A stretch of 64,000 nucleotides of DNA from the NCBI GenBank assembly GCA_022616275.1, contig JAKEFB010000138.1, positions 1-64,000 on the forward strand. Direction: 5' to 3'. The stretch is from Chloroflexota bacterium (GTDB lineage: Bacteria; Chloroflexota; Anaerolineae; Promineifilales; Promineifilaceae). Of the stretch, positions 1,941 to 42,257 are shown piece by piece (position 1 is the first letter of the stretch; each line of letters begins with the position of its first letter). The notes beneath the pieces were generated by a model. That model was not told the DNA's origin. It saw only the letters and a program-made list of their open reading frames with translations, and searched no databases. The position numbers and the translations under genes are program-made.

Positions 1941-4337
1941 CTAAGACCTGGCGCTCGCCAGAGGATAAAAAGCCAGCAAGGCCACCGCGTAAGCGGCCGC
2001 CCCCAGCCACAGGACGGCCGAAAAGCCCCACGACAGGGCCAGCGTCACGGCCAGAACGGCGCTGATGACCGAAAAACTGCCGTTAATAGCCCAGGCCCAG
2101 AGGACCAGCGCCGGCCCGGCTGCCTCCACCAGGCGCAGACCGCCGGCGAAGGGCAGCCCCATCAAATAGCCCAGGGGAGCCAGGGCCAGCACGGTCAACA
2201 GCAGCCTGGCCCAGGCCGGCCAGCCCAGGGCCAGATCGGCCAGGGGCAGAAGGAAAGGGTAGAGGATGGCCGCCACGACCAGCGCCGCCAGCGCCGGCCG
2301 CAGCCGCCAGCGTGGCGCGGTCAGGCTGCCCAGCCCGGAAAAGAGCAGGATGGCAAAAATAACCACCGCCAGGGCCGTCACCGGCTGCTCCAGGAGCAGG
2401 ATGAAGCGCTGGGCCAGGGGGATTTCGACGAAAAGAAAGGCCAGCCCCAGGCCGGCAAAGTAGAGCAGGACCCGCCAGTGGGGTAGCCCGGCCGGCGCCT
2501 CCGGGCGAGTTGTCTGCCCACGCCGGAGCAGCAATGGTCCCAGGATGAACAGCAGCGCGGCCAGCCCGACCAGGAGCAGCAGGGCGACCAGAACGAAGTA
2601 GCCGCTGCCGCCAAACGGCTGCCAGGTGTAGCCCAGGCTGGCCAGGATTTCCGGCGTTTGCCGCCACTTGAAATAGTGGAAGAAGAACGGCCGGTCGTCG
2701 GCCGGCGGCCGGATGTCGAAGCGGTAATCGTCGTAGGTAGCGGCCGGGTCGGCCAGGATGGCCTGGAACAGCTCGTAGTAAGCCGGGGTGGGCAGGACGT
2801 TATAGCGGTTGACTTCGTCCGGCTGGATACCGGGGAAATGGACGGCGTCGAAGTTCCGGCTTTGCAAAAAGTCGCGGACGGTGGCAATTTCTTCGGGGGT
2901 GAAGGGCTCGTTTTTAGCCAGGATGGTCATCGTCCGCAGCGTGCGAAAGGCGACCAGGTGGGCGGCCGGATTGGCACCCCGCTCCAGGCCGCCCAGGGCG
3001 GCGACCAACGCGCCAAACGTTCGAGATTCCTCGCTGGGCGGCGTTTGCAACCAGCGAGTAACGGCCAGCAGGCCATCCTCGTCCAGGGCTTGCAAGTAGT
3101 CCTCGAAAGCCTCGACGGTGTAGAGATAGTTTTCGGTCAGACTGTAGGCGCCAGAGGTGACCGGCCGGTGCGGGTCGGTCAGGGCCACGATGACCACCTC
3201 AAAGCTCCCCGGCGCCAGGCGGCGGGCGTAGACCCGGCCGGACTGGTTGGCGACGGTGACGCGGGGGTTGGCGTACAGATGGCCGCTAAAGGCGCGGTAT
3301 TCGTTCTGCATGATCTCGACCACCAGGCTGTTTTCCTCCACGGCCGTCACCTGCTCGGCCCCGGCAGCCAGGGCCAAGAGGACTTCCATCCCGGCGCCGG
3401 CTTCCAGGACCAGCGTCTGCGCGCCCGGCCGGAGCTGGTAAATCAGGCCGTTGGGCGTGTACCCGGCCAGCAGCGCCGCTTGCTCGTCGCTCGGGTCCAA
3501 GCCGCTGATGGGCATCAGACTATCGCCGTCGAGCAGCAGGCCGGCCTGGGGCGGCGGCCCCACCGGCGCTTGCAGGCTCAGGCCGGGCAGAACGTGGATG
3601 GCCGGGCTTTCTACCACGTCCACCCGCGAGGCAGCGTTCCAATCCGTGTGTACGTGGCGGCTGTCCAACGCCTGGGAGAGGGTGGCCAGCGTCTTGTAGG
3701 GGGAGAGGCGTAGGGCCAGGAATGCCGGCGGCCGGAGGGCTGCGGCCAGGCCGGCCAGTAGTAAGCCCACCAGGGCCAGCGCCGGCTTCCACTGGACCGG
3801 CCGCGGCAGGAACAGCAGCCCGGCGGCGACGCCCAGCGTAGTGGCTATAAGCAGTGCCCCTTCGCCACCCAGGGCAGCCAGCGCCGGCAAACTGGCCAGG
3901 CTGCCCAGCGCCGAGCCGGAAAGATTGGCGGCGTAGACGCGGTGCGAACCCTGCCCTTTCTCGCCGGCGGCCATCAGCTCGCCCCCAACCAGCAGCCCGG
4001 CAAACAAAAACGGGGCGGCTGCGGCCAGGAAGTACAAGGCCAGGTAAAGCACCTGCCGCCGGTCCCAGGCAATGCTGAAAGAATCGAAGGGCAGGTAATT
4101 GATGACCAGGTAAGCGCCAATAGTCGCGGCGCTGAAGGCCAGGCTTAAGACCACCGGCGGCCGGCGGCGCGGCCAGACGGTGAGCAGCGAACCGCTGGCC
4201 CCGGCCCCCAGCAGGGCCAGGCTGACGGCCATGAAGGCGAAGTGGTAGAACTGCTGCACGGCAAACAGCCGCAGCAGCGCCACTTCCAAAAGCAGCGTGG
4301 CGGCCGAGATGAGAACAATGCCAGTGTAGTATGACAT
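1941..4337 (-). CDS. Spermidine synthase-like membrane protein
   Basis: A 798-residue protein with an N-terminal block of about seven membrane helices (1-200), a central cytoplasmic spermidine-synthase/SAM Rossmann domain and a C-terminal block of about six or seven helices (from ~560). The nucleotide motif LEAGAGMEVLLA lies near residues 311-322, with acidic AVEENS after strand 2. It resembles the fused membrane-SpeE proteins common in Chloroflexi and Proteobacteria, for which polyamine synthesis has not been generally proven. I start at ATG 4337 (MSYYTGIVLISAATLLLEVA), which begins directly at the first helix; the 58 extra upstream residues would be translated from an intergenic inverted repeat. 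No strong ribosome site is visible. Confidence 0.72.
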   Translation of the reverse strand: MSYYTGIVLISAATLLLEVALLRLFAVQQFYHFAFMAVSLALLGAGASGSLLTVWPRRRPPVVLSLAFSAATIGAYLVINYLPFDSFSIAWDRRQVLYLALYFLAAAAPFLFAGLLVGGELMAAGEKGQGSHRVYAANLSGSALGSLASLPALAALGGEGALLIATTLGVAAGLLFLPRPVQWKPALALVGLLLAGLAAALRPPAFLALRLSPYKTLATLSQALDSRHVHTDWNAASRVDVVESPAIHVLPGLSLQAPVGPPPQAGLLLDGDSLMPISGLDPSDEQAALLAGYTPNGLIYQLRPGAQTLVLEAGAGMEVLLALAAGAEQVTAVEENSLVVEIMQNEYRAFSGHLYANPRVTVANQSGRVYARRLAPGSFEVVIVALTDPHRPVTSGAYSLTENYLYTVEAFEDYLQALDEDGLLAVTRWLQTPPSEESRTFGALVAALGGLERGANPAAHLVAFRTLRTMTILAKNEPFTPEEIATVRDFLQSRNFDAVHFPGIQPDEVNRYNVLPTPAYYELFQAILADPAATYDDYRFDIRPPADDRPFFFHYFKWRQTPEILASLGYTWQPFGGSGYFVLVALLLLVGLAALLFILGPLLLRRGQTTRPEAPAGLPHWRVLLYFAGLGLAFLFVEIPLAQRFILLLEQPVTALAVVIFAILLFSGLGSLTAPRWRLRPALAALVVAAILYPFLLPLADLALGWPAWARLLLTVLALAPLGYLMGLPFAGGLRLVEAAGPALVLWAWAINGSFSVISAVLAVTLALSWGFSAVLWLGAAAYAVALLAFYPLASARS

Positions 4338-4352
4338 GTGAACGCGCTTCAA

Positions 4353-4432
4353 CGCGAATATCGCGAATGAACGAATGGCGCGAATATTGAAAAAGATTAT
4401 TCGCGTCATTCGCCTATTCGTGCTATTCGCGA
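4353..4432. repeat. ATTCGCG stutter inverted repeat
   Basis: Imperfect inverted repeat: left arm 4353-4386 with iterated CGCGAAT words, right arm 4398-4432 with iterated ATTCGCG words. It occupies the divergent gap between the membrane SpeE-like gene and the MFS gene. It is one of several stuttered intergenic repeats in this window. Confidence 0.65.
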
Positions 4433-4490
4433 TTTTTGATAAGTTTCGGGATAATAGAGCAGTTGTATCCCAGAGTCGAGAGGACGATTG

Positions 4491-5762
4491 ATGCCATCCA
4501 CCGTTGATCACTCACCGGCCCGCCGCATTGCGGCCGCTTTGTTTGTTTCCCAGAGTCTGTTTTCGGCAGCCATTATTGCTTCCTTTACCTTGTCACCCAT
4601 CGTGGCCGCCAGGCTGGGCGGCAGCGACAGCGTCGCCGGGCTGCCGTCCACCCTGACGCTGGTCGGCCGGGCGGCACTGGCCTACCCGATCGGCTGGCTG
4701 ATGAACCAGCTCGGCCGGCGATTGACCCTATCCCTGGGTTATCTGGTGGGAGTTGTCGGGGCGATCATAACGGCCTGGGCTATTGTGGCCGGCTCTTTTC
4801 CCGGCTTTTTGCTGGGCGCGCTCCTCATGGGTGGGGCCAGGGCGTCGGCCGACCAGAGCCGCTACGTGGCCGCCGAGGTCGTCCCGGCCGGGCAGCGGGC
4901 CAGGGTCATCGGCCTGATTGTCTCGGCCGGCACGATTGGGGCGATTGGCGGACCGCTGCTGGTGGATCCGTCCAGCCGGCTGGTCGAGCGGTGGGAAGGC
5001 GTAGACCCGATGGTCGGGCCTTTTGCCGCCAGCGTCGGCCTGATCCTGGTCGCCCTCCTGGCTATCTTTTTCTTTCTCCGCCCGGACCCCCTGGCGTTGG
5101 GCCGGCAAATCGCCGCCAGCGAACCGGCCGGCGCCGGCCGGCCGGCCGGCGACGCCCCGGCCCGGCCGCTGCGCCAGATTTTCGGCCAGCCGTTGGTCCA
5201 GTTGGCTACCGCTTCCATGCTCGTCGGGCAACTGGCCATGAGTCTGGTGATGGTCATTACCTCGCTGCACATGAGCGCCCACGACCACAGCACCCAGGCC
5301 ATCTCCTGGGTCATTATGGCCCACACCCTGGGAATGTTTGGCCTGTCTGGCGTCACCGGCTGGCTGATTGACCGCTTCGGCCGGCTGGCCATGATTTTTG
5401 CCGGGACGATGGTCCTGGCCGTGGCCTGTCTACTGGCACCCATTTCGACGGCCGTGCCGCTGCTGGCGCTGGCCCTCTTTTTGTTGGGCTGGGGCTGGAA
5501 CCTCTGCTTTGTCGCCGGCTCTTCGCTGCTGTCCGACCAGTTGACGATGAGTGAGCGGGCGCAAAGCCAGGGAGCCAGCGAGATTCTTGTCTCCCTGGGG
5601 GCGGGCGCCGGCAGCCTGGGCAGTGGGGCCCTTTACGCTCGGGGGGACATGCTCCTGGTCAGCCTGGTGGGCCTGGCCGTCACCCTGGCGCTCTTCGGGC
5701 TGGCGCTGTGGCTGGCCATGCCCCGCCGCGTGGTGGGGGTGGAGGTGGAGATTGGAGATTAG
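4491..5762 (+). CDS. MFS transporter
   Basis: A 423-residue integral membrane protein with about 12 hydrophobic segments and the major facilitator layout. The loop 2-3 motif appears as GWLMNQLGRRLTLSLGYLVG and the second-half equivalent as GWLIDRFGRLAMIFAG. The loop between helices 6 and 7 holds an Ala/Gly/Pro-rich stretch near residues 205-225. The substrate cannot be told; drug/multidrug exporters are the closest general type. Start ATG 4491 has GAGAGG just upstream. The gene diverges from the SpeE-like membrane gene, and its TAG stop lies inside the inverted repeat at 5755-5812. Confidence 0.85.
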   Translation: MPSTVDHSPARRIAAALFVSQSLFSAAIIASFTLSPIVAARLGGSDSVAGLPSTLTLVGRAALAYPIGWLMNQLGRRLTLSLGYLVGVVGAIITAWAIVAGSFPGFLLGALLMGGARASADQSRYVAAEVVPAGQRARVIGLIVSAGTIGAIGGPLLVDPSSRLVERWEGVDPMVGPFAASVGLILVALLAIFFFLRPDPLALGRQIAASEPAGAGRPAGDAPARPLRQIFGQPLVQLATASMLVGQLAMSLVMVITSLHMSAHDHSTQAISWVIMAHTLGMFGLSGVTGWLIDRFGRLAMIFAGTMVLAVACLLAPISTAVPLLALALFLLGWGWNLCFVAGSSLLSDQLTMSERAQSQGASEILVSLGAGAGSLGSGALYARGDMLLVSLVGLAVTLALFGLALWLAMPRRVVGVEVEIGD

Positions 5763-5818: not shown

Positions 5819-7306
5819 TTACTGCTCGACCAGGCTCATGGCGTAACTGGCGATCTCAAATTCCGCCTCGCCGACACCGATGGAATAATAACCTGTTTCC
5901 GGCAGGGTCAAGGTAATAACCTCCTCGCCTGTACTCGTGTCGTCGGCATACTCCAGTTCGCTGTCCGCGCCACCCTCTACCCCTAACACGTAGAGAACGA
6001 GGTCGGCGTCGCTGGAGGTGGCGGTGATGATGACCGTTTCTCCGGCCGTTCCCTGAAAATGCCACAGGTGGTCTACGACGGTCGGCAGATTGCCGGAGAC
6101 ATTACCACCATAGTTCATATTCTGCTGAAAAACGAAAAAGGGCTCGGCTTCGCCGGTTTGCACGACCACGGCGTAATCGCCGGCCGAGTTGCCCTTGGCC
6201 GTGACAATCAACTGGTAGGCGCCGCTGCCGGATAGAGAGAGTTCGTCAATAAACTCCGGCAGGCCGGCGCCACGATCATCCTCTGTGGCAATGACCGTAT
6301 CGCTGGAATCAAGCACCTGCAAGATGACGTCCAATTCTGGGACCGGGGACACGCTGGCAGAAGTAAGTTGCCCGGAAATGGGCGAGAAAGTCCAACGGTG
6401 AGCCGCGCCGGCGGCCAGGTTTCGTTTCACCGGGTAGTTATAGGGTGCATCGCTGACTTCGTGAACTTCTATTTCGCCCTGGTCAACAGGGACGGGGGTG
6501 CCGGCCGGCGTTTGGTTGGGGGAGGCGCTGGCGTCAGGGGTTGGGCTGGGGCTTTCGGTGGGTGTTGGCCCGCCGGCGCCACCGGTTGGCGTGGCCGAGG
6601 GCGTGGGGGAGAATAAAGGCGTCGGCGTGGCCGGCAACGGCAGGGTGGGGAATGGCCCAATCGTCGGCGTAGGGGTGGCCGCCGTCGGCGGCCGGGTGGG
6701 CGTGGCCCCGGCCGGCGGGGCTGGGGTTGGAATCGTTGGGCCGCCATTACCTGTCGTCGGCAAAGGGGCCGGCCCGGTCCCCTCTGCAACAGTTGCGGTG
6801 GGCGAGGGTAATTCGGCGACCACCTGGCCCTCCTCGGTGGGGCGGACCAACGGGTTGGGCGAGAGAATACGGCTGGCTTCCAGATACCACAGTTCTTCCA
6901 CCGGGGCGCGCCGGCCGCAGCCTACCGGGCCACGCCAGAATTGCCAGCGCCCTTCCACCGTCAGCAGGAGCCCTTCGGCGGCCAGGGAGCGCAATTCAAG
7001 GTCAAAGCCGCCGGCCAGGACGCGCACGTCGCCAAAGGTGAGGGCCCAGGTGGCCGGCGAGCGGTGCTGGTCTTCGTTGCAGACCAGCAGCGGCAGCGGC
7101 TCATACTGGCCGGTGAGTTGAATGAAAGTGCCTTCGAAGGTAGATGGGTTGCGTATCAGGGTGGTCAGGGGGACAGCCCCAGCCTGAAAAGGCGGGGCGG
7201 CAATCGTCGGCGCCGGCGTGTCTTCGGCCGCCGGTTGCGGCAACACCCCGCAGCCGGCCAGGACAATCAGGCAGATGATACCCCAGAAGATCCCGTAACG
7301 GTTCAT
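5819..7306 (-). CDS. Lipoprotein with C-terminal PPC-like domains
   Basis: A 495-residue surface lipoprotein. The signal ends at LAGC with Cys19. Residues ~45-165 form a conserved globular domain (SPATWALTFGDVR, RWQFWRGPVGCGRRAP). A long Pro/Thr/Gly linker runs from ~165 to 290. Two pre-peptidase C-terminal-like beta domains follow, the second ending with LTLPETGYYSIGVGEAEFE. It is a paralogue of the gene at 8312-9847, which has the same architecture and the same WRGPVGCGR core motif. A binding role at the cell surface is an inference. The FKBP gene lies between the two copies, all on one strand. Confidence 0.75.
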   Translation of the reverse strand: MNRYGIFWGIICLIVLAGCGVLPQPAAEDTPAPTIAAPPFQAGAVPLTTLIRNPSTFEGTFIQLTGQYEPLPLLVCNEDQHRSPATWALTFGDVRVLAGGFDLELRSLAAEGLLLTVEGRWQFWRGPVGCGRRAPVEELWYLEASRILSPNPLVRPTEEGQVVAELPSPTATVAEGTGPAPLPTTGNGGPTIPTPAPPAGATPTRPPTAATPTPTIGPFPTLPLPATPTPLFSPTPSATPTGGAGGPTPTESPSPTPDASASPNQTPAGTPVPVDQGEIEVHEVSDAPYNYPVKRNLAAGAAHRWTFSPISGQLTSASVSPVPELDVILQVLDSSDTVIATEDDRGAGLPEFIDELSLSGSGAYQLIVTAKGNSAGDYAVVVQTGEAEPFFVFQQNMNYGGNVSGNLPTVVDHLWHFQGTAGETVIITATSSDADLVLYVLGVEGGADSELEYADDTSTGEEVITLTLPETGYYSIGVGEAEFEIASYAMSLVEQ

Positions 7307-32432: not shown

Positions 32433-33395
32433 ATGAAGCCTACTATTTCTGTTATCGTGCCTGTTTACAACGAAGAACCAGTTTTGCCGGAGCTGTACCG
32501 GCGCATGTGCCAGGTGATGGACGGGCTGGGCGAGCCGTGGGAGTTGGTCCTGGTCAACGACGGTAGCCGGGATGACTCGGCCGGGGTGATTGGCCAGTTG
32601 CACGCCCAGGACGCGCGGGTCAAGGGGGTCAGTTTCTCGCGCAATTTTGGCTTCCAGGAGGCAGTGACGGCCGGGCTGAATTACGCCGGTGGGGAGGCCG
32701 TGATCCTGGCCGACGCCGACCTGCAAGACCCGCCGGAGGTCATTCCCCAGATGGTGGCCAGGTGGCGCGAAGGGTACGACGTCGTTTACGGCGTGCGGGC
32801 CAGCCGCGTTGGAGAAACGTGGTTCAAGCGCTTTACGGCCAAGGCTTTCTACCGCATCATTCACCGCATCACCAGCGTCAAAATTCCCCTGGACACCGGC
32901 GATTTCCGGCTGATGGACCGGCGGGTGGTCAGGGCCATCTTGCGCATGCCGGAGCGCAACCGTTTCTTGCGGGGCATGGTCCCCTGGGTCGGCTTCCGGC
33001 AGGTGGGGGTGCCCTACGAGCGCCAGGCCCGCTTTGCCGGAGAATCAAAGTTCAAGAGCGTCAGGCAAATGCTGCCCTTTGCCGTTGACGCCATTACCAG
33101 CTTTTCGTACTTCCCGCTGCAACTGGCGACCTACCTGGGCTTCTCCATTGCCGCCGTCAGCCTGGTCGGTATCCTGGTCGTCATCGGCCTGCGCCTGTTC
33201 GCCCCGCACGAGCTATCCGGCCAGGCGACGACGCTGGTGGCCGTGCTGTTCCTGGGCGGGGTGCAGTTAATTTCGCTGGGTATCATCGGCGAATACCTCG
33301 GCCGCATTTACGACGAAGTCAAGGGCCGGCCGTTGTACCTGGTGGATAAGACCTGGGGGTTTGAGGAGGAACGGCCGGCAGGGGCAACAGACTGA
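32433..33395 (+). CDS. GT2 family glycosyltransferase (DPM1/GtrB-like)
   Basis: A 320-residue membrane-attached enzyme that transfers a nucleotide sugar to a polyprenyl phosphate. GT-A signatures: [45 protein letters not shown] (the DxD region), [11 protein letters not shown], and RFAGESKFK. Two C-terminal membrane helices (from ~225 and ~260) match the DPM1/GtrB type. It could supply the GT39-like enzyme at 24597-26051, an inference from family roles. The start is ATG 32433; no clear ribosome site. Its stop lies within the first copy of a 93-bp tandem duplication. Confidence 0.88.
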
Positions 33396-33563
33396 GAAAC
33401 GGATGATAGACGACGGAAGTGGAGGGCATGTGTTGAGGGTTATGTGAGGTGGCAAGGTGAGCAAGGTGAGGCAGGGGCAACAGACTGAGAAACGGATGAT
33501 AGACGACGGAAGTGGAGGGCATGTGTTGAGGGTTATGTGAGGTGGCAAGGTGAGCAAGGTGAG
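33377..33563. repeat. 93-bp direct tandem duplication
   Basis: Two apparently identical 93-bp copies (33377-33469 and 33470-33562, plus one base). Copy 1 contains the last codons and stop of the GT2 gene. Sequence identity suggests recent duplication. The GGTGAGCAAGGTGAGCAAGG end of each copy is itself a short stutter. Confidence 0.9.
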
Positions 33564-33792
33564 CAAGGAGATCATTATTAGTATATAGGTATATATCTCT
33601 ATTCAGGTAGGGTCGCCGGCAACGGGTAGCGGCCGGATACCGCCAGATATGGTGGAAATCACGGAAAATCCAGACATAAATGGCTAGATATAGAGATAGC
33701 CACATTGGGCACCGTAAGAGCCAATACATTCGGCGGGCAGTGCGGCCGGTGGCCATTTGTGTTGGGCTGGCGGCTATGAATCGGATACGGGG
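33396..33792. other. Gap between the GT2 gene and the restriction locus
   Basis: A 397-bp gap between convergent genes. The first part is the 93-bp tandem duplication. From about 33571 there is a short AT-rich stretch (TATATAGGTATATATCTC) and otherwise unremarkable sequence. I see no gene; the open frame on the minus strand here is simply the duplication translated twice. Confidence 0.6.
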
Positions 33793-34536
33793 CTAGTATT
33801 CCCAATCTTCATGCGCCAGCGGCGCTTGATTCAATATATCCCGATGCAGAGGCCACTGGGGCAAAAAGCGATCCATATGGGCGCGGAAGGCGTCGTTATG
33901 GCGACGCTCCAGTAGATGTACCATTTCATGCACCAGAATATACTCCAGGCATTCCACCGGCTTCTTGGCCAATTCCAGATTCAGCAAGATGCGCCGCCTG
34001 GCGATGTGGCAGCTTCCCCACTTCGTCTTCATCCTCTTCACACCCCATTCGGCTACCTGTTCGCCGATGATCGGTTCCCATTTGGCAAGTAAGGCCGGGA
34101 CACGCTTTTTAATTTTGGCCCGATACCACTCATTCAGTGCCAGTTCCCGATTGGCGCGAGTGGTGTCGGGGTTGACGTAGAGGATGAGGCGGGCGTTGTT
34201 TTTGATGACGACTTCATGCTTACCGGCGCGTTCCACCACATCCAGCAAATAACGCCGTCCCCAAACATAGTGACTTTCCCCCGTCACCATTTCCCGCTGC
34301 GACTGGCGCGGCTGCGCCTCGAAGGCTGCCTGCTGCTTTTTAATCCAGCCGAGCTTGTTGATAACCGCCAGGCGCACGTTGTCGTCGGTGACGTGCAGCG
34401 GCACGGCCACGCGTACCCGCCCGTCTGGTGGATACACCGCCAGATGCACGTTCTTGATCGCCTTTCGCACCACCTGCACCTCGATGCCGTTGACGGTCAG
34501 GATGGCACTGGGCGGCTTGTGATTACTGGTACTCAT
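33793..34536 (-). CDS. YgjP/SprT-like zinc metalloprotease
   Basis: A 247-residue DUF45-type protein. The zinc site HEMVHLLERRHN gives HExxH plus a downstream His; KTKWGSCHIARRRILLN is the usual preceding block. Homologues are often the last gene of type I restriction operons, where the role is not established. The start ATG 34536 overlaps the end of hsdR by 14 bp, so it belongs to that operon. The third metal ligand is probably the His in ERRHNDAF. Confidence 0.87.
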   Translation of the reverse strand: MSTSNHKPPSAILTVNGIEVQVVRKAIKNVHLAVYPPDGRVRVAVPLHVTDDNVRLAVINKLGWIKKQQAAFEAQPRQSQREMVTGESHYVWGRRYLLDVVERAGKHEVVIKNNARLILYVNPDTTRANRELALNEWYRAKIKKRVPALLAKWEPIIGEQVAEWGVKRMKTKWGSCHIARRRILLNLELAKKPVECLEYILVHEMVHLLERRHNDAFRAHMDRFLPQWPLHRDILNQAPLAHEDWEY

Positions 34537-37500
34537 CCTGATTTTTTATCACTTCCACCAATTCGTCCAGACTGACGTCATATTCGCCTAGCCCTTCCCG
34601 GATAGCCCGGATAACTTCCCGCTCCTTGAAGCGGTTGCCAATCCAGCCATCCTTTTTGGTTGTCAGCACGGCCGTATCCACCCGCAGCACCAGCTCCGCA
34701 TTGCGGTCAAGGGTATCATAGAGGTTTCGTCTGGCCCGGGTGTTCATAGAGGCCGGATAACGGCCGCTGCCCACCCCCTCTGGACGCACTACCTTTGTGG
34801 CCAAGGCCTGGACCCGTTCCAGATAGGCCTTGTATTGGAGGGCCTGCTCCCGCCGCTCCCGAATCAGGGCATCCAGCAGGGCCGACATCTCATCATAATA
34901 TTTTGGGTTGACCTGGCGCTCGTCGGTGATGATGCGGCGGATGTTATTCTCAATGGCTTCGGCCATGGCCGTCTTGCTGCGGCGAATGCCCTCCGGCAGG
35001 TCATTCAGTGCGCCCAGCCCTTTCTCCACCAGCAGTTCCACCAGCCCCAGGTCGTCGAATTTGGAGACGACTACGCTGTCTTCGGCGCGGATGTAGGTGT
35101 CCAGGAGGTGGCGCATCGCCGGTTCATACTGTTTCATGTCAATCAGGTCGCCGCTGGCCAGCTTGACTTCCTGAGCGATCTTATCGTAATGGGCGACTTC
35201 CTGCCGGATAGCGGCAATTTCGGCGGCGGTGTAGCCCGCTTCGGCCAGTTCATTGGCCAGATTGGCATAGGCCCGCAGCAGCGCGGCCACCGCCTTGTAC
35301 AAGGCCACCCGCTTTGGCTCATTGGCGCGCAGGGCTTCCTCGTCGGTGGTGTCGGCGGCGCAGAAGTAGTGGAGATAATCGGCCGTGTCGCGGGGCAAAG
35401 CCACCGGCTCACACAGCGCTTTGACTGTTTCGCGAGTCTCTTCCAGCCGCTCCCGCGCTTTCTCCAGCCGGTTGGTTAGCAGTCCAGCCACGTCGGCCTG
35501 GTCGTAACCTTCAAACGCGCCTCCGGTGTAGTCTCTGATGGCCCCTTCCAGGCTATGGAACAAATCTTTGTAGTCCACGATGTAGCCATACTCTTTGTCG
35601 TCGCCGTCCAGCCGGTTGACGCGGCAAATGGCCTGGAAGAGGCCATGATCACGCATCTGCTTGTCTATGTAGAGGTAGGTGGCGGAGGGGGCGTCGAAGC
35701 CGGTAAGCAGTTTATCTACCACAATCAGCAGCCGCATCTGCCCCGGTTCCTTAATGAAACGCTCTTTGACACGCTGCTCAAACTCTTCCACCTTGTACAT
35801 GGCCGTATCTTCCGGTTCGTCGAAGAAGTCGGCCAGCATCTTGCGGTAAATGTCGTACTGGCGCAGCTTTTCGGTCCGGCCTTCGCCAGAATCTTCCAGC
35901 TTGATGTCGGCCGGGGAGGGCTTGTAGCTGGTGATAATGGCGCACTTTCCGGCCAGGCTGGTGCGACTTAACAGTTCGTACACCTTGCAGGCCTGGTAGA
36001 TGCTGGCGCAGACGAGCATGGCGTTGCCCCGGCCGTCCATCAGGCGAGGGCGGATCTCCATATCCATGAGAATATCGTTCACAATCTGCTCCAGGCGGGA
36101 CTGGCTGGAGAGGACCTGCTTCATGGTGCCCCATTTCTGTTTGAGCTGAACCTTGGCCATTTCGGAGAGACCGCGGGTCTTGGCCTCAAACCACTGGTCA
36201 ACCTTTTGCGGCGAGGTCATGTACTGGTCAATGTCCCGCGCTTCGTAGCGCAGGTCGAGGACGACGCCATCGGCGACGGCTTCGTCGTATTTATAGGTGT
36301 GGATATAGCTGCCGAAGACCTCGATGCTCTTTTGTTTGTCGGCCTTCAGCAGCGGCGTACCGGTGAAACCGATGAACAGGGCATTGGGCAGGATGGCCTT
36401 CATCGCCTTATGTAAATCACCGGACTGGGTGCGGTGGCATTCGTCCACAAAGACGAAGAGGGTGCCTTTGGCCTGGAAATTGCCAGACAGGCTGCGCTGG
36501 ATTTCGGCTATGAATTCATCGGTCGCCGTATCGTCGTTTCCCCGGCCAAATTTATGCACCAGGGAACAGACCAGCCAAGGGGTGGTCTTGTTCAAGGTGT
36601 GGATCAGGTCGGCCCCGCTTGTGGTGCGGTAGATCTCTTCCTGCACACCCTCGAATACCTCTTCGATTTGCTCGTCCAGTTCGGTGCGGTCGGTGATGAT
36701 CAGGACGCGAGCGTCAGTGACGTTTTCCCGAATCCATTTCGCCAGCCAGACCATTATCAGGCTCTTGCCGGAACCCTGGGTGTGCCAGACGATACCACCT
36801 TCACGCTGCTGGATGCGCCTCTGGGCAGCATGAACGCCGAAATATTGGTTGTGGCGCGGCACTTTTTTAGTGCCGCTGTCGAAGACGATGAAATTGTGGA
36901 TCAGTTCCAGAAAGCGGGTTTTGTTGGCCAGGCGCAGCAGGGCGCAGTCTAAAAGGCTGGCGGCGCTGACGTTAGCAGCGGCGGCGCAAGGGGCGGCCGG
37001 TAAATAGCGGGCCTGGCGGTCGTCTACCTGGGGATTGTAGGCCGGATTTTCTTCTTTCCAGGTCAGGTAATATTTTTCTGCGGTTTCGATGGCGCCATAG
37101 CGCAACCCTTCGGTGTCGTTGCCGGCCATGACGAGCTGGATGGTGGCGAAGAAGCTGCGGACGAAGGTCTTTTTCTGGTTGTCGAGGTTCTGGCGGATGC
37201 CTTCGCTGACGGAGACGCTGGAGCGCTTCAGTTCGAGGACGCCGAGGGCAATGCCGTTGACGTAGAGAACGACGTCCGGCCGTTTTTTGTTTTCGCCGGT
37301 GACGGTGACTTCTTCGGCGATGGCGAAGTCGTTGTTGAGGGGGTGTTTCCAGTCAATGAGCCACACCGTTTGGGTCTGTTCCCCCGCGCCGGGCTTCACC
37401 TTGACGCCGTAGCGCAGCAGGCTGTAGACGGCCTTGTTGGCGTCGTAGAGGTTTTTGCCTTCGCCCAGGGCGGCCGCCTGGCCCAGGGCGTGCAGGGCGC

Positions 37501-37681
37501 GGGTGATGAGGGTGTCGCTGACGCCGCGCCGCAGTAGCCAGCCGCGCAGGAGCGTTTCCTCGATGTTGCGGTTGTTGAGGCGGTCCTGCCAGTTGCCCAA
37601 GTAGGTGTAGCCGAGTTGGTTTTGGAAGAGTTTAACCACCCGGTTCTGGGTGGCGCGTTCGCGCTGGCCGACGGTGGTCAT
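34523..37681 (-). CDS. hsdR: Type I restriction enzyme R subunit
   Basis: A 1052-residue ATP-dependent DNA translocase and nuclease. The N-terminal nuclease core is RPDVVLYVNGIALGVLELKR (PD..ELK pattern, ~residues 130-150). Helicase motifs follow: Walker A HTQGSGKSLIMVWLA, DECH box VFVDECHRTQ, GFTGTPLL, and the last motif AICRVNRLDGDDKEYGY. The C-terminal helical region binds the HsdM/HsdS core. ATG 37681 is chosen, with AAAGGG upstream; the extra residues in the longer frame would be translated from the palindrome array. A RAYT gene separates it from hsdS, which is unusual. Confidence 0.95.
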   Translation of the reverse strand: MTTVGQRERATQNRVVKLFQNQLGYTYLGNWQDRLNNRNIEETLLRGWLLRRGVSDTLITRALHALGQAAALGEGKNLYDANKAVYSLLRYGVKVKPGAGEQTQTVWLIDWKHPLNNDFAIAEEVTVTGENKKRPDVVLYVNGIALGVLELKRSSVSVSEGIRQNLDNQKKTFVRSFFATIQLVMAGNDTEGLRYGAIETAEKYYLTWKEENPAYNPQVDDRQARYLPAAPCAAAANVSAASLLDCALLRLANKTRFLELIHNFIVFDSGTKKVPRHNQYFGVHAAQRRIQQREGGIVWHTQGSGKSLIMVWLAKWIRENVTDARVLIITDRTELDEQIEEVFEGVQEEIYRTTSGADLIHTLNKTTPWLVCSLVHKFGRGNDDTATDEFIAEIQRSLSGNFQAKGTLFVFVDECHRTQSGDLHKAMKAILPNALFIGFTGTPLLKADKQKSIEVFGSYIHTYKYDEAVADGVVLDLRYEARDIDQYMTSPQKVDQWFEAKTRGLSEMAKVQLKQKWGTMKQVLSSQSRLEQIVNDILMDMEIRPRLMDGRGNAMLVCASIYQACKVYELLSRTSLAGKCAIITSYKPSPADIKLEDSGEGRTEKLRQYDIYRKMLADFFDEPEDTAMYKVEEFEQRVKERFIKEPGQMRLLIVVDKLLTGFDAPSATYLYIDKQMRDHGLFQAICRVNRLDGDDKEYGYIVDYKDLFHSLEGAIRDYTGGAFEGYDQADVAGLLTNRLEKARERLEETRETVKALCEPVALPRDTADYLHYFCAADTTDEEALRANEPKRVALYKAVAALLRAYANLANELAEAGYTAAEIAAIRQEVAHYDKIAQEVKLASGDLIDMKQYEPAMRHLLDTYIRAEDSVVVSKFDDLGLVELLVEKGLGALNDLPEGIRRSKTAMAEAIENNIRRIITDERQVNPKYYDEMSALLDALIRERREQALQYKAYLERVQALATKVVRPEGVGSGRYPASMNTRARRNLYDTLDRNAELVLRVDTAVLTTKKDGWIGNRFKEREVIRAIREGLGEYDVSLDELVEVIKNQDEYQ

Positions 37682-37693
37682 GGATTTCCCTTT

Positions 37694-37742
37694 GTAGAGA
37701 CGCAAAATGTTGCGTCTGAGACGCAAAATCTTGCGTTTCTAC
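37694..37742. repeat. GTAGAGACGCAA palindrome, two fused copies
   Basis: Two joined copies: 37694-37717 (one base changed in the loop, outer end missing) and 37718-37742. The innermost lies 13 bp before the hsdR start. The second copy heads a tandem array of 47-bp units. Confidence 0.85.
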
Positions 37743-37761
37743 GATGATGGTAATGGCGGTT

Positions 37762-37789
37762 GTAGAGACGCAAAATCTTGCGTTTCTAC
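37762..37789. repeat. GTAGAGACGCAA palindrome, array copy
   Basis: 28 bp, left arm GTAGAGACGCAA, loop AATC, right arm TTGCGTTTCTAC (one mismatch). It repeats at 47-bp intervals with its neighbours, separated by a conserved 19-bp spacer (GATGATGGTAATGGCGGTT). Confidence 0.9.
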
Positions 37790-37808
37790 GATGATGGTAA
37801 TGGCGGTT

Positions 37809-37836
37809 GTAGAGACGCAAAATCTTGCGTCTCTAC
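37809..37836. repeat. GTAGAGACGCAA palindrome at the RAYT 3' end
   Basis: 28 bp with perfect 12-bp arms and loop AATC. On the minus strand the TAG within GTAGAGACG is the stop codon of the RAYT gene. Confidence 0.9.
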
Positions 37837-38399
37837 GTGGTGTACAACGAATCATTGGTCCAATTCTGTGGGTTGGTGCGAATGTAGTGGCGGATGCGTT
37901 CCAGTTCTTCAGCGTTACGAATAACATGGTCATGATAACGTGGCTGCCATTGGAAAGGGATGTCGTGTTCCTGGCTGTATTTTGTAACCCCAATTTTATA
38001 CCCGCGCACGATAGATGCCAGATTTTTTGATTGCGGGCCGAATTTGTTCTGCGGGCCGGATGGTGGTGGTGGCGATTGTAGAGACGCAAAATCTTGCGTC
38101 TCTACGGCAGGGGCGGCGGTGTCGGCCGGTTTGTCAATGACGAGAATGCCATGCATGTGGTTGGGCATCACCACGAATTCATCCAAGACGACAAAAGGGA
38201 AATGGTCGGGAATGGCGGACCAACAATCCTCGGCCGCCCGGCCGATGGAGGTCAAATTCATCTCGCCGGCGACAATGGTGCCAAAATCGTGGCTGCGGGT
38301 TTTGGTGCAGATGGTGATGAAATAGGGCGCATTGGCCCCGTAATCCCAGGCACCCCAGCGGGCGCTGGGGATGCGGTATTTGCCTTTGTATTTGTCCAT
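37833..38399 (-). CDS. REP-associated tyrosine transposase (RAYT)
   Basis: A 188-residue Y1/HUH transposase of the domesticated-IS200 type that mobilises palindromic REP elements. The HUH motif is in MPNHMHGILVI; the candidate catalytic Tyr is in SIVRGYKIGVTKY; the family ending FQWQPRYHDHVIRNAEELE and YIRTNPQNW is intact. Between HUH and Tyr helix a copy of the local palindrome is inserted in frame, giving VETQDFASL. The stop codon is inside another copy. I start at ATG 38399 (MDKYKGKYRIPSARWG); the longer frame reads through repeats. It interrupts the hsdS-hsdR gap in the same orientation. Confidence 0.9.
   Translation of the reverse strand: MDKYKGKYRIPSARWGAWDYGANAPYFITICTKTRSHDFGTIVAGEMNLTSIGRAAEDCWSAIPDHFPFVVLDEFVVMPNHMHGILVIDKPADTAAPAVETQDFASLQSPPPPSGPQNKFGPQSKNLASIVRGYKIGVTKYSQEHDIPFQWQPRYHDHVIRNAEELERIRHYIRTNPQNWTNDSLYTT
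38078..38105. repeat. GTAGAGACGCAA palindrome inside the RAYT gene
   Basis: 28 bp with perfect 12-bp arms. In frame within the transposase gene, encoding VETQDFASL on the minus strand. Confidence 0.92.
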
Positions 38400-38413
38400 G
38401 TGTTTATTCAATG

Positions 38414-38441
38414 GTAGAGACGCAAGATTTTGCGTCTCTAC
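38414..38441. repeat. GTAGAGACGCAA palindrome upstream of RAYT
   Basis: 28 bp, loop GATT (opposite orientation in top-strand reading). It lies 15 bp upstream of the RAYT start and could influence its translation or be its substrate. Confidence 0.9.
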
Positions 38442-38462
38442 GGTGGTGGTGGTGGTTCGGTG

Positions 38463-38491
38463 GTAGAGACGCAAGATTTTGCGGTTTCTAC
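38463..38491. repeat. GTAGAGACGCAA palindrome, 29-bp variant
   Basis: One extra G and one substitution in the right arm. A more degenerate relic (GTGCAAGATGTTGCGTTTAC) follows at about 38516-38535. Confidence 0.85.
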
Positions 38492-38556
38492 GATGGTGTC
38501 GGTTCTGTGATGGCGGTGCAAGATGTTGCGTTTACATGATGGTATCGGTTCAGGGT

Positions 38557-38584
38557 GTAGAGACGCAAGATTTTGCGTCTCTAC
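38557..38584. repeat. GTAGAGACGCAA palindrome at the hsdS 3' end
   Basis: 28 bp with perfect arms. On the minus strand its TAG provides the hsdS stop codon, as at the RAYT 3' end. Confidence 0.9.
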
Positions 38585-39777
38585 GGTGGTGGGCGGTGTG
38601 GCACCAATCGGGTTTTGCCGGTTAATAGTTCTTGCATCATGCCCTGTTTGATGGCCTGGGTTTTGGCGCGGCGGGCTTCGAGGGCAGCGATTTCGGCGTC
38701 CATATCAGAAAGAATTTGAGCTATTGCTATTTGTTCCTCTTCTTCTACTGGCATATATATCGGTATATCGCCGATCTGACCCACATTGATTTTCTTTGGG
38801 GTAGCGTGGAGCAATGACCTTTGCTCTACATCTTGTACAAACCTTTCTGATTTTGTATATCTGTAAATGTATTCAATGTGAACCCTATCTTTCAATTTAA
38901 GCAATGCTAAACTTACGTAAATACTTGCATTAACATCCCAATCAATGAGTTTGGTTTGTCCCAACGTTCCAATTCTCGTCATCAAAATGTCGCCTCTTTC
39001 AGGCTTGCATCGTTTGATTAAAAGCTCGTGTGCATTACGAGATATGTATTTCGTATTCGAGAAGTTGTTTTCAGTGATTGTTTCAACACTATAAAAAGGA
39101 ACCCCATCGTCAACATATTTGGGTGTATAGTGCGTACCATCATTTATGTAGGAACAGACTTCCCCTAGCGACTTTTCCACCCACCGGCCGTTAAACCCCG
39201 GCAACCGTCTTTCTCCTGTGAGGAGCTGCTGCATCACGGCCGTTTTCATATCCCGCTTCTTGGCAATCAATCGATCCAGCGCCACCAGCAGCCCATCCAC
39301 ACCTCTCAGCGCGTCTGCGATCGCCCATTGTTCTTGCAGTGGCGGAAGAGGAATCCACATGTTTGCAATCATTTCCATGCGAACAGAGTCAACCGAAGAC
39401 TTTGCGGTCATTGCCATGATTCTGTCATAAAAACGATTACTGAAATAGTTGTAGAAGTAGAACCCATTCAAAACAGGTTTAAAATCGCTAATTTTGTAAA
39501 CGCGCTGGTGGTAATCAAATTTTCCATTAATGTAATGAAAGACTTTTCCCGTACCTACTCCGTCGCCAGCTGTTAGTACAGCCTCGCCATCATACGAGTA
39601 AGTATCAATTCTTTCGACAAGTTGTGACCTAACAAAAAAAGGAAATTCGCCGTCCGGTTTTCTGTCTTGAGTATTCCTGCTGCCAGTAGTAATTGACGCA
39701 AGATTACTAATTTTTTCGATGCCCCAATCTTCGGGAATTGGCCCGACCTCAGATTGCTTATAGCCCGATTTCATCAT
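38581..39777 (-). CDS. hsdS: Type I restriction specificity subunit
   Basis: A 398-residue DNA-recognition subunit. Two target-recognition domains (about 10-150 and 210-345) are each followed by a helical spacer: LPPLQEQWAIADALRGVDGL with MQQLLTGERRLPGF, and EEEEQIAIAQILSDMDAEI with MMQELLTGKTRL. The target domains are markedly more AT-rich than surrounding DNA, as expected for exchangeable domains. ATG 39777 overlaps the hsdM stop by four bases (ATGA). The last few residues (VPHRPPP) and the stop come from repeat-related DNA, so the natural C-terminus may have been altered after LLTGKTRL. Confidence 0.93.
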   Translation of the reverse strand: MMKSGYKQSEVGPIPEDWGIEKISNLASITTGSRNTQDRKPDGEFPFFVRSQLVERIDTYSYDGEAVLTAGDGVGTGKVFHYINGKFDYHQRVYKISDFKPVLNGFYFYNYFSNRFYDRIMAMTAKSSVDSVRMEMIANMWIPLPPLQEQWAIADALRGVDGLLVALDRLIAKKRDMKTAVMQQLLTGERRLPGFNGRWVEKSLGEVCSYINDGTHYTPKYVDDGVPFYSVETITENNFSNTKYISRNAHELLIKRCKPERGDILMTRIGTLGQTKLIDWDVNASIYVSLALLKLKDRVHIEYIYRYTKSERFVQDVEQRSLLHATPKKINVGQIGDIPIYMPVEEEEQIAIAQILSDMDAEIAALEARRAKTQAIKQGMMQELLTGKTRLVPHRPPP

Positions 39778-42257
39778 GTCATCCCCATCCTTTGCAAGTG
39801 GGCGTTCACCTTCGCCGTCAATTCGGCCACCTCGTCCACCAGCCTGGGCAGAGGGTCGGCGTAGCGTTCTTCCAGCAGTTTGACCCGGGCCGCCAGTAGA
39901 GACGCAAGATTTTGCGTCTCTACGTTTATGGCCGATTCCAGCGCTGCCAGCCATTTGTCGGCCACAACCAGGGTCTTAATCTCTGCCTCGTTCAGGCAGT
40001 GGTAGCGGGCAAAGACCTGCTCGTCCAGCTTCTTTTGGACCTCGCTCACCTGTTTGCCGGCGGCACTTTCCGCGTCCAGCAACTGCTGGCACTGTTCCAG
40101 GACGGCCCGCTCCTCGCCGGCCTCCGGGTCGCCCACAATCGCTTTCAGCCGGTCGCTAAGGCCGCCTTTCGTCACCTTGCCCTTGTCGTTGGTGGCTTCG
40201 GCCAGCAGCCCTTCTTCGCCGCCGTGTTCTTCAAGCAACGCCGCCAGTTCGGCGCTAATGGCCTCTCTGGCGGCCTGCAACTGCTCAATCTCGGCCTGTT
40301 CGCGGGCAAAGTAGCGGGCCACCAGCAGCGCGGGGGGAATCAGGTCGGCCTTGTATTTCTTGCGGCTGATGACTAGATCGGGGGTTTCTTTGTTCTTTTG
40401 TTCCTTCACGTCCAACAGTTCGCGTAATGCGCCGCCGGCCGCCTGCCAGCCGTCCTGCACAATCAGGTAGACGTCGTCCTGCATTGTATCCGCCCAGTAA
40501 TCCATCAATAGCTGGTAGATGGCGTATTTGTCGATCAATGGTACAGACGCAATATCCCGTAGAGACGCAAAATCTTGCGTCTCTACGACGGGGGCGGCAA
40601 AACGGGCCAGCAGATCCTCGGCCAGTTCTCGAATCAGCGCCTTTGGTTCTTCATTGGCCGACAGCCCATATAGCCGGGGGGCGCGGGCGTCGCGCCAGGC
40701 CTGGTACAGGGCCAGGGTCCGCGCGGCAAAGGCGCTAAATTCCGGGTGCTTGAGAATGGTGGCCTTGACCTCCCCGGCCGCTACCCGCGCCGCGCTATAC
40801 CCTTCACGTTCTGCCGGCGCGAACAAGTCGTCGCGCAGGGTGGGGAAGACGCGCCAGTAATGGCCCAGGGCGTCAATGTCCCGCTGGGGAATGCCGCCGC
40901 ATAGGTGGGCGGTCAGGTCATGGATGTCTTCTGGCTCGCTGCTGTCAATGTAGCGGGGGATGTTCAGGTTGTACTCGTGCTGCTCAATCTCGCTAAAGGG
41001 CACCAGCCGCGCATAGCGGGGCACGGCCAACTGCCGGTTAAAGACATCCACAATCTGGTGAATGTCTCGGCTGCGCAGCCGGTTCTTGTTGCCATCCTTC
41101 ATGAAGCCACGGCTGGCGTCAATCATAAAGATGCCGGTGCGGGTGGCGGCGTGTTCCTTATCCAGGACAATGATGCAGGCCGGGATGCCTGTGCCATAAA
41201 AGAGGTTGGGCGGCAGGCCGATGATGCCCTTAATCACCCCCTGCTTGACCAGGTTACGGCGAATGTCGGCCTCCGTGTTGCCACGGAAGAGGACGCCGTG
41301 AGGCAGGATCACGGCTGCCTTGCCAGTGCTCTTCAGCGACTTGAGAATGTGCAGCAGGAAGGCATAATCGCCATTCTTGGCCGGGGGGAGGCCATAGGCA
41401 AACCGACCAAATTCATCGTCGGCGACATTCACGCCATTGGTCCATGATTTATAGGAGAACGGCGGATTGGCCACAGCAAAATCAAACCTCTTGAGGCCAC
41501 CATTTTCCCGCCAGTGTGGGTTAGAGAGCGTATTGCCCTGCCACATTTCGGCGCCAACGTTGTTGTGCAAAATCATATTCATGCGGGCCAGGGCAGCCGT
41601 GGCGTTGTCCATCTCTTGCCCGTAGATTGACAGCCCACGCGGCGCTTGATCGGCCACCTTGAGCAGGAGCGAACCCGATCCACAAGTCGGGTCATATACG
41701 GTCTGGTCCTGGCGCGTTTCTCTGGTGATGCCAATCACCTGGGCCAGAACGCGGGAGACTTCGGCCGGGGTGTAAAATTGCCCTTTGCTCTTGCCCGATT
41801 CGGTGGCGAAGTGGCGCATCAGGTACTCGTAGGCGTCGCCCAGGAGGTCATCCCCTTCGGCGCGATTGCCGCTGAGGCTCAGCCCCTCAAAAATTGCCAC
41901 CAACTTTGTGAGGCGGTCCACCATCTCCTTATCTTGGCCTAGTTTGTCCTCGTCGTTGAAGTCGGCCAGGTCGTCAATGACGCCCCTGAGGCTATTGGCT
42001 TCGGCTAACCGGCCGATGATTTTATTCATCTTGTCGCCGATTTCCTTGTCCCCTTTCAGCCTAACCATGTCGGCGAAGGAGCCATTTTCGGGAATGACAA
42101 TCAAGCCGTAAGGGTCGCCGGCGTATTTGTCGGAGACGTATTTGACAAAGAGGAGGGTCAGGACGTAATCCTTGTACTGAGAGGCATCCATGCCGCCGCG
42201 CAGTTCGTCGCAAGACTGCCAGAGAGAGCTGTATAGTTCGCTTTTTTTGATAGCCAT
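39774..42257 (-). CDS. hsdM: Type I restriction DNA methyltransferase subunit
   Basis: An 827-residue N6-adenine methyltransferase. N-terminal HsdM_N domain (1-130), then SAM motif I DPTCGSGSLLLKVADQ and catalytic motif IV AVANPPFSYKSW (NPPF). The C-terminal ~320 residues form a long extension with a coiled coil (AREQAEIEQLQAAREAISAE onward), found in a larger class of HsdM. Two palindromes are inserted in frame in this extension: VETQDFASL near 565 and VETQNLASL near 783. Both keep the reading frame open. The neighbouring order hsdM-hsdS with a 4-bp overlap implies one message starting upstream of 42257. Confidence 0.94.
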   Translation of the reverse strand: MAIKKSELYSSLWQSCDELRGGMDASQYKDYVLTLLFVKYVSDKYAGDPYGLIVIPENGSFADMVRLKGDKEIGDKMNKIIGRLAEANSLRGVIDDLADFNDEDKLGQDKEMVDRLTKLVAIFEGLSLSGNRAEGDDLLGDAYEYLMRHFATESGKSKGQFYTPAEVSRVLAQVIGITRETRQDQTVYDPTCGSGSLLLKVADQAPRGLSIYGQEMDNATAALARMNMILHNNVGAEMWQGNTLSNPHWRENGGLKRFDFAVANPPFSYKSWTNGVNVADDEFGRFAYGLPPAKNGDYAFLLHILKSLKSTGKAAVILPHGVLFRGNTEADIRRNLVKQGVIKGIIGLPPNLFYGTGIPACIIVLDKEHAATRTGIFMIDASRGFMKDGNKNRLRSRDIHQIVDVFNRQLAVPRYARLVPFSEIEQHEYNLNIPRYIDSSEPEDIHDLTAHLCGGIPQRDIDALGHYWRVFPTLRDDLFAPAEREGYSAARVAAGEVKATILKHPEFSAFAARTLALYQAWRDARAPRLYGLSANEEPKALIRELAEDLLARFAAPVVETQDFASLRDIASVPLIDKYAIYQLLMDYWADTMQDDVYLIVQDGWQAAGGALRELLDVKEQKNKETPDLVISRKKYKADLIPPALLVARYFAREQAEIEQLQAAREAISAELAALLEEHGGEEGLLAEATNDKGKVTKGGLSDRLKAIVGDPEAGEERAVLEQCQQLLDAESAAGKQVSEVQKKLDEQVFARYHCLNEAEIKTLVVADKWLAALESAINVETQNLASLLAARVKLLEERYADPLPRLVDEVAELTAKVNAHLQRMGMT
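39896..39923. repeat. GTAGAGACGCAA palindrome in hsdM, C-terminal copy
   Basis: 28 bp, perfect arms, in frame. Encodes VETQNLASL between helices of the HsdM C-terminal extension. Confidence 0.93.
40541..40586. repeat. GTAGAGACGCAA palindrome in hsdM with an adjoining relic
   Basis: An intact 28-bp copy (40559-40586) directly next to a degenerate half (GTACAGACGCAATATC, 40541-40556). Both are in frame, encoding VETQDFASLRDIASVP, which suggests an older and a newer insertion at one site. Confidence 0.88.

Follow-up and report, generated by a model that had tools for sequence, protein, structure and literature searches.

The question raised by the locus examined here is why a gene for a REP-associated tyrosine transposase (RAYT; REP, repetitive extragenic palindrome) should lie inside a type I restriction operon, surrounded by copies of a 28-bp palindrome. 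The locus is part of a 64,000-nucleotide stretch (the whole of which is referred to below as the window) of contig JAKEFB010000138.1 in the Chloroflexota assembly GCA_022616275.1, a source genome of 8.53 Mb in 309 contigs that is 98% complete. Our data suggest, with a probability of roughly one half (0.52), that a REP-RAYT-REP unit of the TnpA_REP type is lodged behind the specificity gene hsdS, and that the type I operon is a recurrent, favoured niche for such units. As far as a limited literature search can tell, the main new result is that RAYTs recur inside type I restriction operons.

All three type I subunits, HsdM, HsdS and HsdR, are present in the window as open reading frames (ORFs) with family matches, and the gene order is hsdM, hsdS, RAYT, hsdR, with all four genes on the minus strand:

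34523..37681, minus strand: hsdR, type I restriction subunit R, 1052 amino acids (HSDR_N, SWI2_SNF2 and T1R_D3-like; TIGR00348)
37833..38399, minus strand: predicted RAYT/TnpA_REP gene, 188 amino acids (weak NF047646 match; 4er8 by profile and fold; HUH and YIxxNP motifs)
38581..39777, minus strand: hsdS, specificity subunit, 398 amino acids (Methylase_S, 1.1e-25)
39774..42257, minus strand: hsdM, modification subunit, 827 amino acids (N6_Mtase, 2e-102, and HsdM_N; TIGR00497)

The start of hsdS and the end of hsdM overlap by 4 nt, as read from the sequence at the junction. The original prediction had placed a RAYT between hsdS and hsdR, and matches of family, fold and motif bear this out, on the same strand as its neighbours; this gene, together with palindromes in hsdM, is what the window adds to an ordinary type I hsdM, hsdS, hsdR operon. 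Co-transcription of the RAYT with the surrounding hsd genes is likely.

On sequence and modelled structure, the gene at 37833-38399 is identified as a RAYT of the TnpA_REP kind. NCBIfam NF047646 (REP-associated tyrosine transposase) matches with 45.4 bits over 34 residues, below its 80-bit equivalog cut-off, and a Pfam scan of the protein gave no family at 0.001, Y1_Tnp included; these models may have been built on other TnpA_REP subclasses. In a profile search of the PDB the sole sequence match at E 0.01 was 4er8 (E 1.1e-8), an E. coli-type TnpA_REP bound to a REP hairpin, and the same entry was the top Foldseek match (E 2.5e-6; 18% identity in the fold alignment) for a structure model with a mean predicted local distance difference test score (pLDDT) of 81.7, which makes it the closest solved fold. 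The HUH motif reads MPNHMH, a YIxxNP motif is also present, and H81, H83 and Y172 are invariant across 26 RAYT sequences, Y172 being taken as the catalytic tyrosine; the protein would be catalytically active. Three traits agree with TnpA_REP subclass 2.4 (Quentin et al., 2018; PMC6006769), in which REPs flank the gene and a GT[AG]G foot has its complement at the other end: GTAG-tagged palindromes flank the RAYT gene (37809-37836 and 38414-38441), the palindromes have a foot at each end (GTAG...CTAC), and an in-frame REP lies between the HUH and Y motifs (38078-38105). The window differs from what is described there by the place of its RAYT, within a type I operon at which the palindromes also cluster, and the main text of PMC6006769 has no word beginning with "restriction".

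Recurrence was assessed in 199 RAYT loci gathered regardless of their neighbours, namely the 80 best-matching named loci in GTDB genomes and 119 Anaerolineae loci taken in listing order among the matches listed; 198 of the 199 are distinct (L130 and L166 are one locus, negative in both guises), and L080 was left unlabelled. A type I gene lies within 1.5 kb of the RAYT in 22 of the 199 (5 of 80 named, 17 of 119 Anaerolineae), and all 42 such type I genes are co-directional with their RAYT. Within 400 bp, hsdS is upstream of 12 RAYTs and downstream of 2, while hsdR is downstream of 11 and upstream of 2, and many RAYTs are embedded between operon genes, beyond mere nearness. The named positives are from Bacteroidia (L089), Flavobacteriales (L120), Cloacimonadota (L134), Cytophagales (L136) and a Methylococcales symbiont (L151). 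Adding six RAYTs from outside the 199, namely that of the window, L280 (G094:C22, fetched because hsdM had already been seen there) and four in loci fetched for HsdM, gives 28 positives, in which 57 of 57 type I genes are co-directional. Much of this evidence comes from draft or metagenome-assembled genomes, in which start codons were guessed.

On a FastTree phylogeny of 209 RAYTs the type I label needs 24 changes for its 28 positive tips (shuffled mean 26.6), and therefore the association either arose many times or was often lost; the parsimony count lends no support to monophyly of the restriction-embedded RAYTs. Starting reciprocally from HsdM, 5 of 23 type I loci, hand-picked from a list, hold a RAYT (one a weak match, L281), which is a lower bound since several contigs are short; G013, G015 and G094:C22, also on that list, pair hsdM with a RAYT and were not counted. 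Among the genes lying next upstream of 107 Anaerolineae RAYTs are DEAD helicases (6), Methylase_S (5), N6_Mtase (4) and Eco57I (3), and therefore other restriction or defence genes also occur upstream of RAYTs. Carriage on plasmids or phages was discarded as a route, matches being present in 2 of 72,556 plasmid and 1 of 50,697 phage records, and the two matching plasmid neighbourhoods (6 kb each side) hold no annotated restriction gene.

The palindromes are as confined as the original prediction had it, which was at least ten copies at 37.69-40.59 kb and none elsewhere in the window. A search with the 12-base arm GTAGAGACGCAA, allowing at most 1 mismatch, returned 18 matches where 0.14 were expected, a total attained in 0 of 100 shuffles, and all 18 fall at 37694-40586, with zero elsewhere in the window. 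By eye the double-foot GTAG palindrome, with a unit of 28 bp, is present in about twelve copies, intact or degenerate, and some of these form arrays on both sides of the RAYT at a spacing of about 47-49 bp. The copies, to which no strand is assigned, are:

37694..37742: fused palindrome pair, 12 bp upstream of the hsdR start codon (by eye and arm search)
37762..37789: palindrome with 1 mismatch and 47-bp spacing to its neighbours (genome palindrome search)
37809..37836: palindrome at the 3' end of the RAYT gene, whose stop TAG comes from the GTAG foot
38078..38105: palindrome in the RAYT linker, in frame in a low-confidence loop and translated VETQDFASL
38414..38441: palindrome ahead of the RAYT gene, 14 bp upstream of its start codon
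38463..38491: palindrome of 29 nt, one arm altered
38513..38540: degenerate palindrome (62% relative to the reference copy of 47 nt)
38557..38584: palindrome at the 3' end of hsdS, whose stop TAG comes from the GTAG foot
39896..39923: palindrome inside hsdM, in frame, VETQNLASL
40541: half palindrome copy (by eye)
40559..40586: palindrome within the 48-bp hsdM insertion
40545..40592: 48-bp in-frame hsdM insertion (edges uncertain by about a codon) that contains the palindrome at 40559-40586 and some of the half copy at 40541

Palindromes had been noted both around and inside the RAYT gene; the copy inside it is in frame, hsdM has two further in-frame copies, and two copies serve as stop codons. 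Two reading frames of the palindrome are open and the third gives a stop, which would let it insert at gene ends and into linkers with little harm. The TAG in the GTAG feet supplies the stop codons of both hsdS and the RAYT; across loci, hsdS ends in GTAG in 7 of the 19 with hsdS upstream of a RAYT (window counted), and 29 of 162 RAYT genes end in GTAG, 45 of 162 using a TAG stop. Since it is already described (Di Nocera et al., 2013; PMC3733652) that ORFs next to GTAG-tagged REPs often take their stop codon from the REP, stop-codon donation was dropped as a new discovery, and the frequencies alone are added here. The same applies to self-insertion into the linker, which was described for subclass 2.4 (PMC6006769) and for which we likewise add frequencies only: a stem score of at least 10 is reached by 108 of 162 RAYT linkers, compared with 4 of 162 N-terminal and 0 of 162 C-terminal parts (45 further RAYTs without a recognised motif pair excluded). 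In the window RAYT, linker residues 99-112, which hold the palindrome peptide, have a pLDDT below 50.

The 48-bp insertion in hsdM corresponds to 16 alignment columns that are missing in all three orthologues compared (G307, G314 and G151; loci L075, L076 and L077), while the hsdM of G022 has a shorter palindrome insert at the place equivalent to 40545-40592 and another insert elsewhere in the gene. The hsdM copy at 39896-39923 causes no net length change relative to G151 and G022, and looks as if it overwrote hsdM sequence rather than being added to it. A MOSC-like ORF (by eye) in G151 (L077, 15816-16691) encodes the peptide VETQDFASVQ, resembling another in-frame palindrome copy.

Across the source genome, the palindrome with at most 3 mismatches occurs at 11 places, of which 7 lie at the hsd/RAYT locus within 3 kb and 4 are single copies on four other contigs, in front of genes (by eye). 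The density is thus far from the uniform one on which the idea of local seeding would have foundered, and the 7 of 11 copies at the locus support that idea. The exact pattern GTAGAGACG...CGTCTCTAC is found at 25 places, 6 at the locus, 1 more with the same core and 18 whose cores differ (GTTGC in 15), the last spread over 17 contigs and nearly all single; no RAYT cognate to these other-core palindromes was identified in the source genome. Because the other-core copies are dispersed, local clustering is a trait of the locus palindrome family and not of such palindromes generally. E. coli REPs are numerous and dispersed, unlike the palindromes of the window. Genomes with related RAYTs are similar to the window in three cases, with copies on the RAYT contig in G071 (3 of 3), G022 (5 of 9) and G240 (1 of 1), but not in G237 (0 of 3). 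Of the 108 RAYT loci whose linker holds a palindrome, the window ranks first in flank copies (6), though with flanks of 15 kb against a median of 8 kb; the linker palindrome has a flank copy of at least 80% identity in 45 of the 108, compared with 3.3% in the flanks of other loci (flank lengths vary). A general cognacy of linker and flanking palindromes, considered as a rule, proved true in part only, many loci having no nearby flank copy. In Candidatus Kuenenia hertensis (L084, near 4001-4534) the RAYT linker contains the 28-bp palindrome of the window, and its flanks hold zero copies.

The original prediction also held that the RAYT had inserted into a formerly contiguous operon. A related operon in G151 (L077), which runs hsdM, hsdS, hsdR, supports the existence of such operons without a RAYT, though other small ORFs occupy its gaps. 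In G022, from another family of the same class, a RAYT directly precedes hsdR in a related operon (identity 60% for HsdM, 62% for RAYT, 69% for HsdR), and the insertion is therefore not obviously recent, nor is the location unique; a recent entry, considered as a candidate, is weakened by this operon. Three side observations concern these regions: the hsdS-hsdR interval of L077 (6891-7723) has two small ORFs on the opposite strand that by eye resemble a VapBC-type pair; a candidate defence protein (PADLOC PDC-S02, E 2.9e-153) lies between hsdS and the RAYT of G022 (L079, 2527-3450); and just beyond the operon in the window (33267-33756) there is a short DNA repeat, with a 28-letter protein stretch occurring twice in the ORF translations.

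We propose that a poorly mobile REP-RAYT-REP unit with double-foot palindromes would lodge directly behind hsdS, where at gene ends the GTAG foot acts as a stop codon (hsdS, RAYT), and that inside genes the palindrome is tolerated as a nine-residue in-frame peptide (hsdM, the RAYT linker). The RAYT would copy its own palindrome mainly into nearby DNA, and RAYTs of this kind would have come into type I operons on many occasions, for the most part co-directionally and on the 3' side of hsdS, probably because an operon that is transcribed, moves horizontally and is hard to lose suits a barely mobile transposase. A selfish niche is thus the probable reason for the position of the RAYT.

Several results weigh against this proposal. 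The RAYT is not beside type I genes in 177 of the 199 loci, nor is the most similar RAYT found (G071, L162); some of the matches called HsdM (e.g. L217) may be type IIG enzymes; and 22 of 500 label shuffles on the tree need as few changes as observed, so that weak clustering is possible. Upstream neighbours of RAYTs are co-directional in general (85 of 108 Anaerolineae and 57 of 77 named loci), and RAYT orientation is for that reason not special to restriction operons. Control transposases of PF01797 were compared with RAYTs by pairing lists drawn from one set of 298 genomes (148 RAYT places, set against 130 hsdS genes; all counts from these lists are among the matches listed), and the share lying within 5 kb of hsdS, 8 of 147 RAYTs and 3 of 150 controls, does not differ significantly (p 0.14); the same is true of fetched neighbourhoods with a type I gene (3 of 40 PF01797 and 23 of 201 RAYTs, L280 included; Fisher p 0.59), which span about 3 to 13 kb and in which the control set is small. 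One control, L331 (G286:C163, match 6001-6339), even lies between hsdR and hsdM, co-directionally.

These points are those on which the strongest competitor draws, which says that RAYTs and restriction operons merely share mobile islands, that RAYTs enter co-directionally wherever this is tolerated, and that hsdS is a common 3' end. The PF01797 controls are themselves enriched near hsdS (P 0.0005 under uniform placement), and most RAYT upstream genes are co-directional, as such hitch-hiking would have it. The details of placement speak against it: among the listed matches there are 8 pairs of a RAYT and an hsdS no more than 5 kb apart, compared with about 0.15 that uniform placement would give if each genome is taken as 4.4 Mb; all 8 are on the same strand, 7 have hsdS upstream and adjacent, and 138-1253 bp separate the domain matches, whereas the control pairs are 1.7-2.8 kb apart. 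With hsdS upstream within 1.3 kb there are 7 of 147 RAYTs and 0 of 150 controls (p 0.007), a cut that was picked after the data were seen, and many RAYTs are embedded between operon genes. The control comparisons therefore indicate that proximity to restriction genes is common to other transposases and that the specific part is adjacency behind hsdS; hitch-hiking alone is a real but doubtful explanation.

A functional role is harder to credit. Here the RAYT would be an accessory gene of type I systems, recruited repeatedly and translated with hsdS, which acts on single-stranded hairpins of invading DNA or tunes the HsdS:HsdR ratio. RAYT and hsdS overlap or abut in 5 of the 19 loci with hsdS upstream, on a crude start call (L165 -20, L134 -4, L264 -4, L260 -1 and L089 +2 nt), an arrangement suggestive of coupled translation that leaves room for an accessory role. 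Of the 28 restriction-embedded RAYTs, 22 have intact HUH and YIxxNP motifs, as do 157 of 185 others; HsdM, RAYT and HsdR of the window and G022 have diverged to a similar degree (60, 62 and 69%), and other RAYT upstream neighbours include the Eco57I, Mrr_cat, DEAD and ResIII families. On the other hand, the related operon in L077 does without a RAYT, only 5 of 23 HsdM loci have one, and a linker stem score of at least 10 is found in 13 of 17 measured embedded RAYTs compared with 99 of 150 others; embedded RAYTs are thus not marked as specialised, since they keep their linker palindromes much as elsewhere. It is unlikely that RAYTs are a recurrent accessory of type I operons, as hairpin nucleases coupled to hsdS in several lineages that aid or regulate anti-phage restriction and whose palindromes are recoded linkers and stops.

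That the RAYT and its palindromes shuffle or switch restriction specificity, as had also been suggested, is highly improbable: the RAYT does directly adjoin hsdS, but TnpA_REP is a single-strand nuclease and is not known to be a recombinase of the kind that acts in inverting hsdS systems, the hsdM copies are in frame, and among signs of hsdS phase variation (a family scan covered five ORFs around hsdS) no palindrome lies within hsdS apart from the stop-codon copy.

The niche proposal can be set against two further known systems. The GTAG-tagged REPs of Di Nocera et al. (2013) resemble the window palindromes in their GTAG tag, their presence in Chloroflexi, their intragenic copies and their TAG stops; the main text of that paper (PMC3733652) contains neither the string GTAGAGACG nor any word beginning with "restriction". 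Rickettsia palindromic elements, as presented in PMC3733652, also lie in frame within protein genes, the difference being that the window has a likely source next door, in a RAYT with the same palindrome. A word search of PMC2817692 was without matches, and a limited search of open-licence literature found no earlier report of RAYT recurrence in type I operons.

The locus also illustrates how coding sequence can take up a palindrome of 28 bp almost harmlessly, one frame reading it as a stop and the two others as a short peptide. What role RAYTs have in their hosts is an open question. A repeated, orientation-fixed place in type I operons offers a concrete, testable context for RAYT function, and the recurrence of this position points to either a favoured home in, or a partnership with, the type I restriction operon, an anti-phage system.

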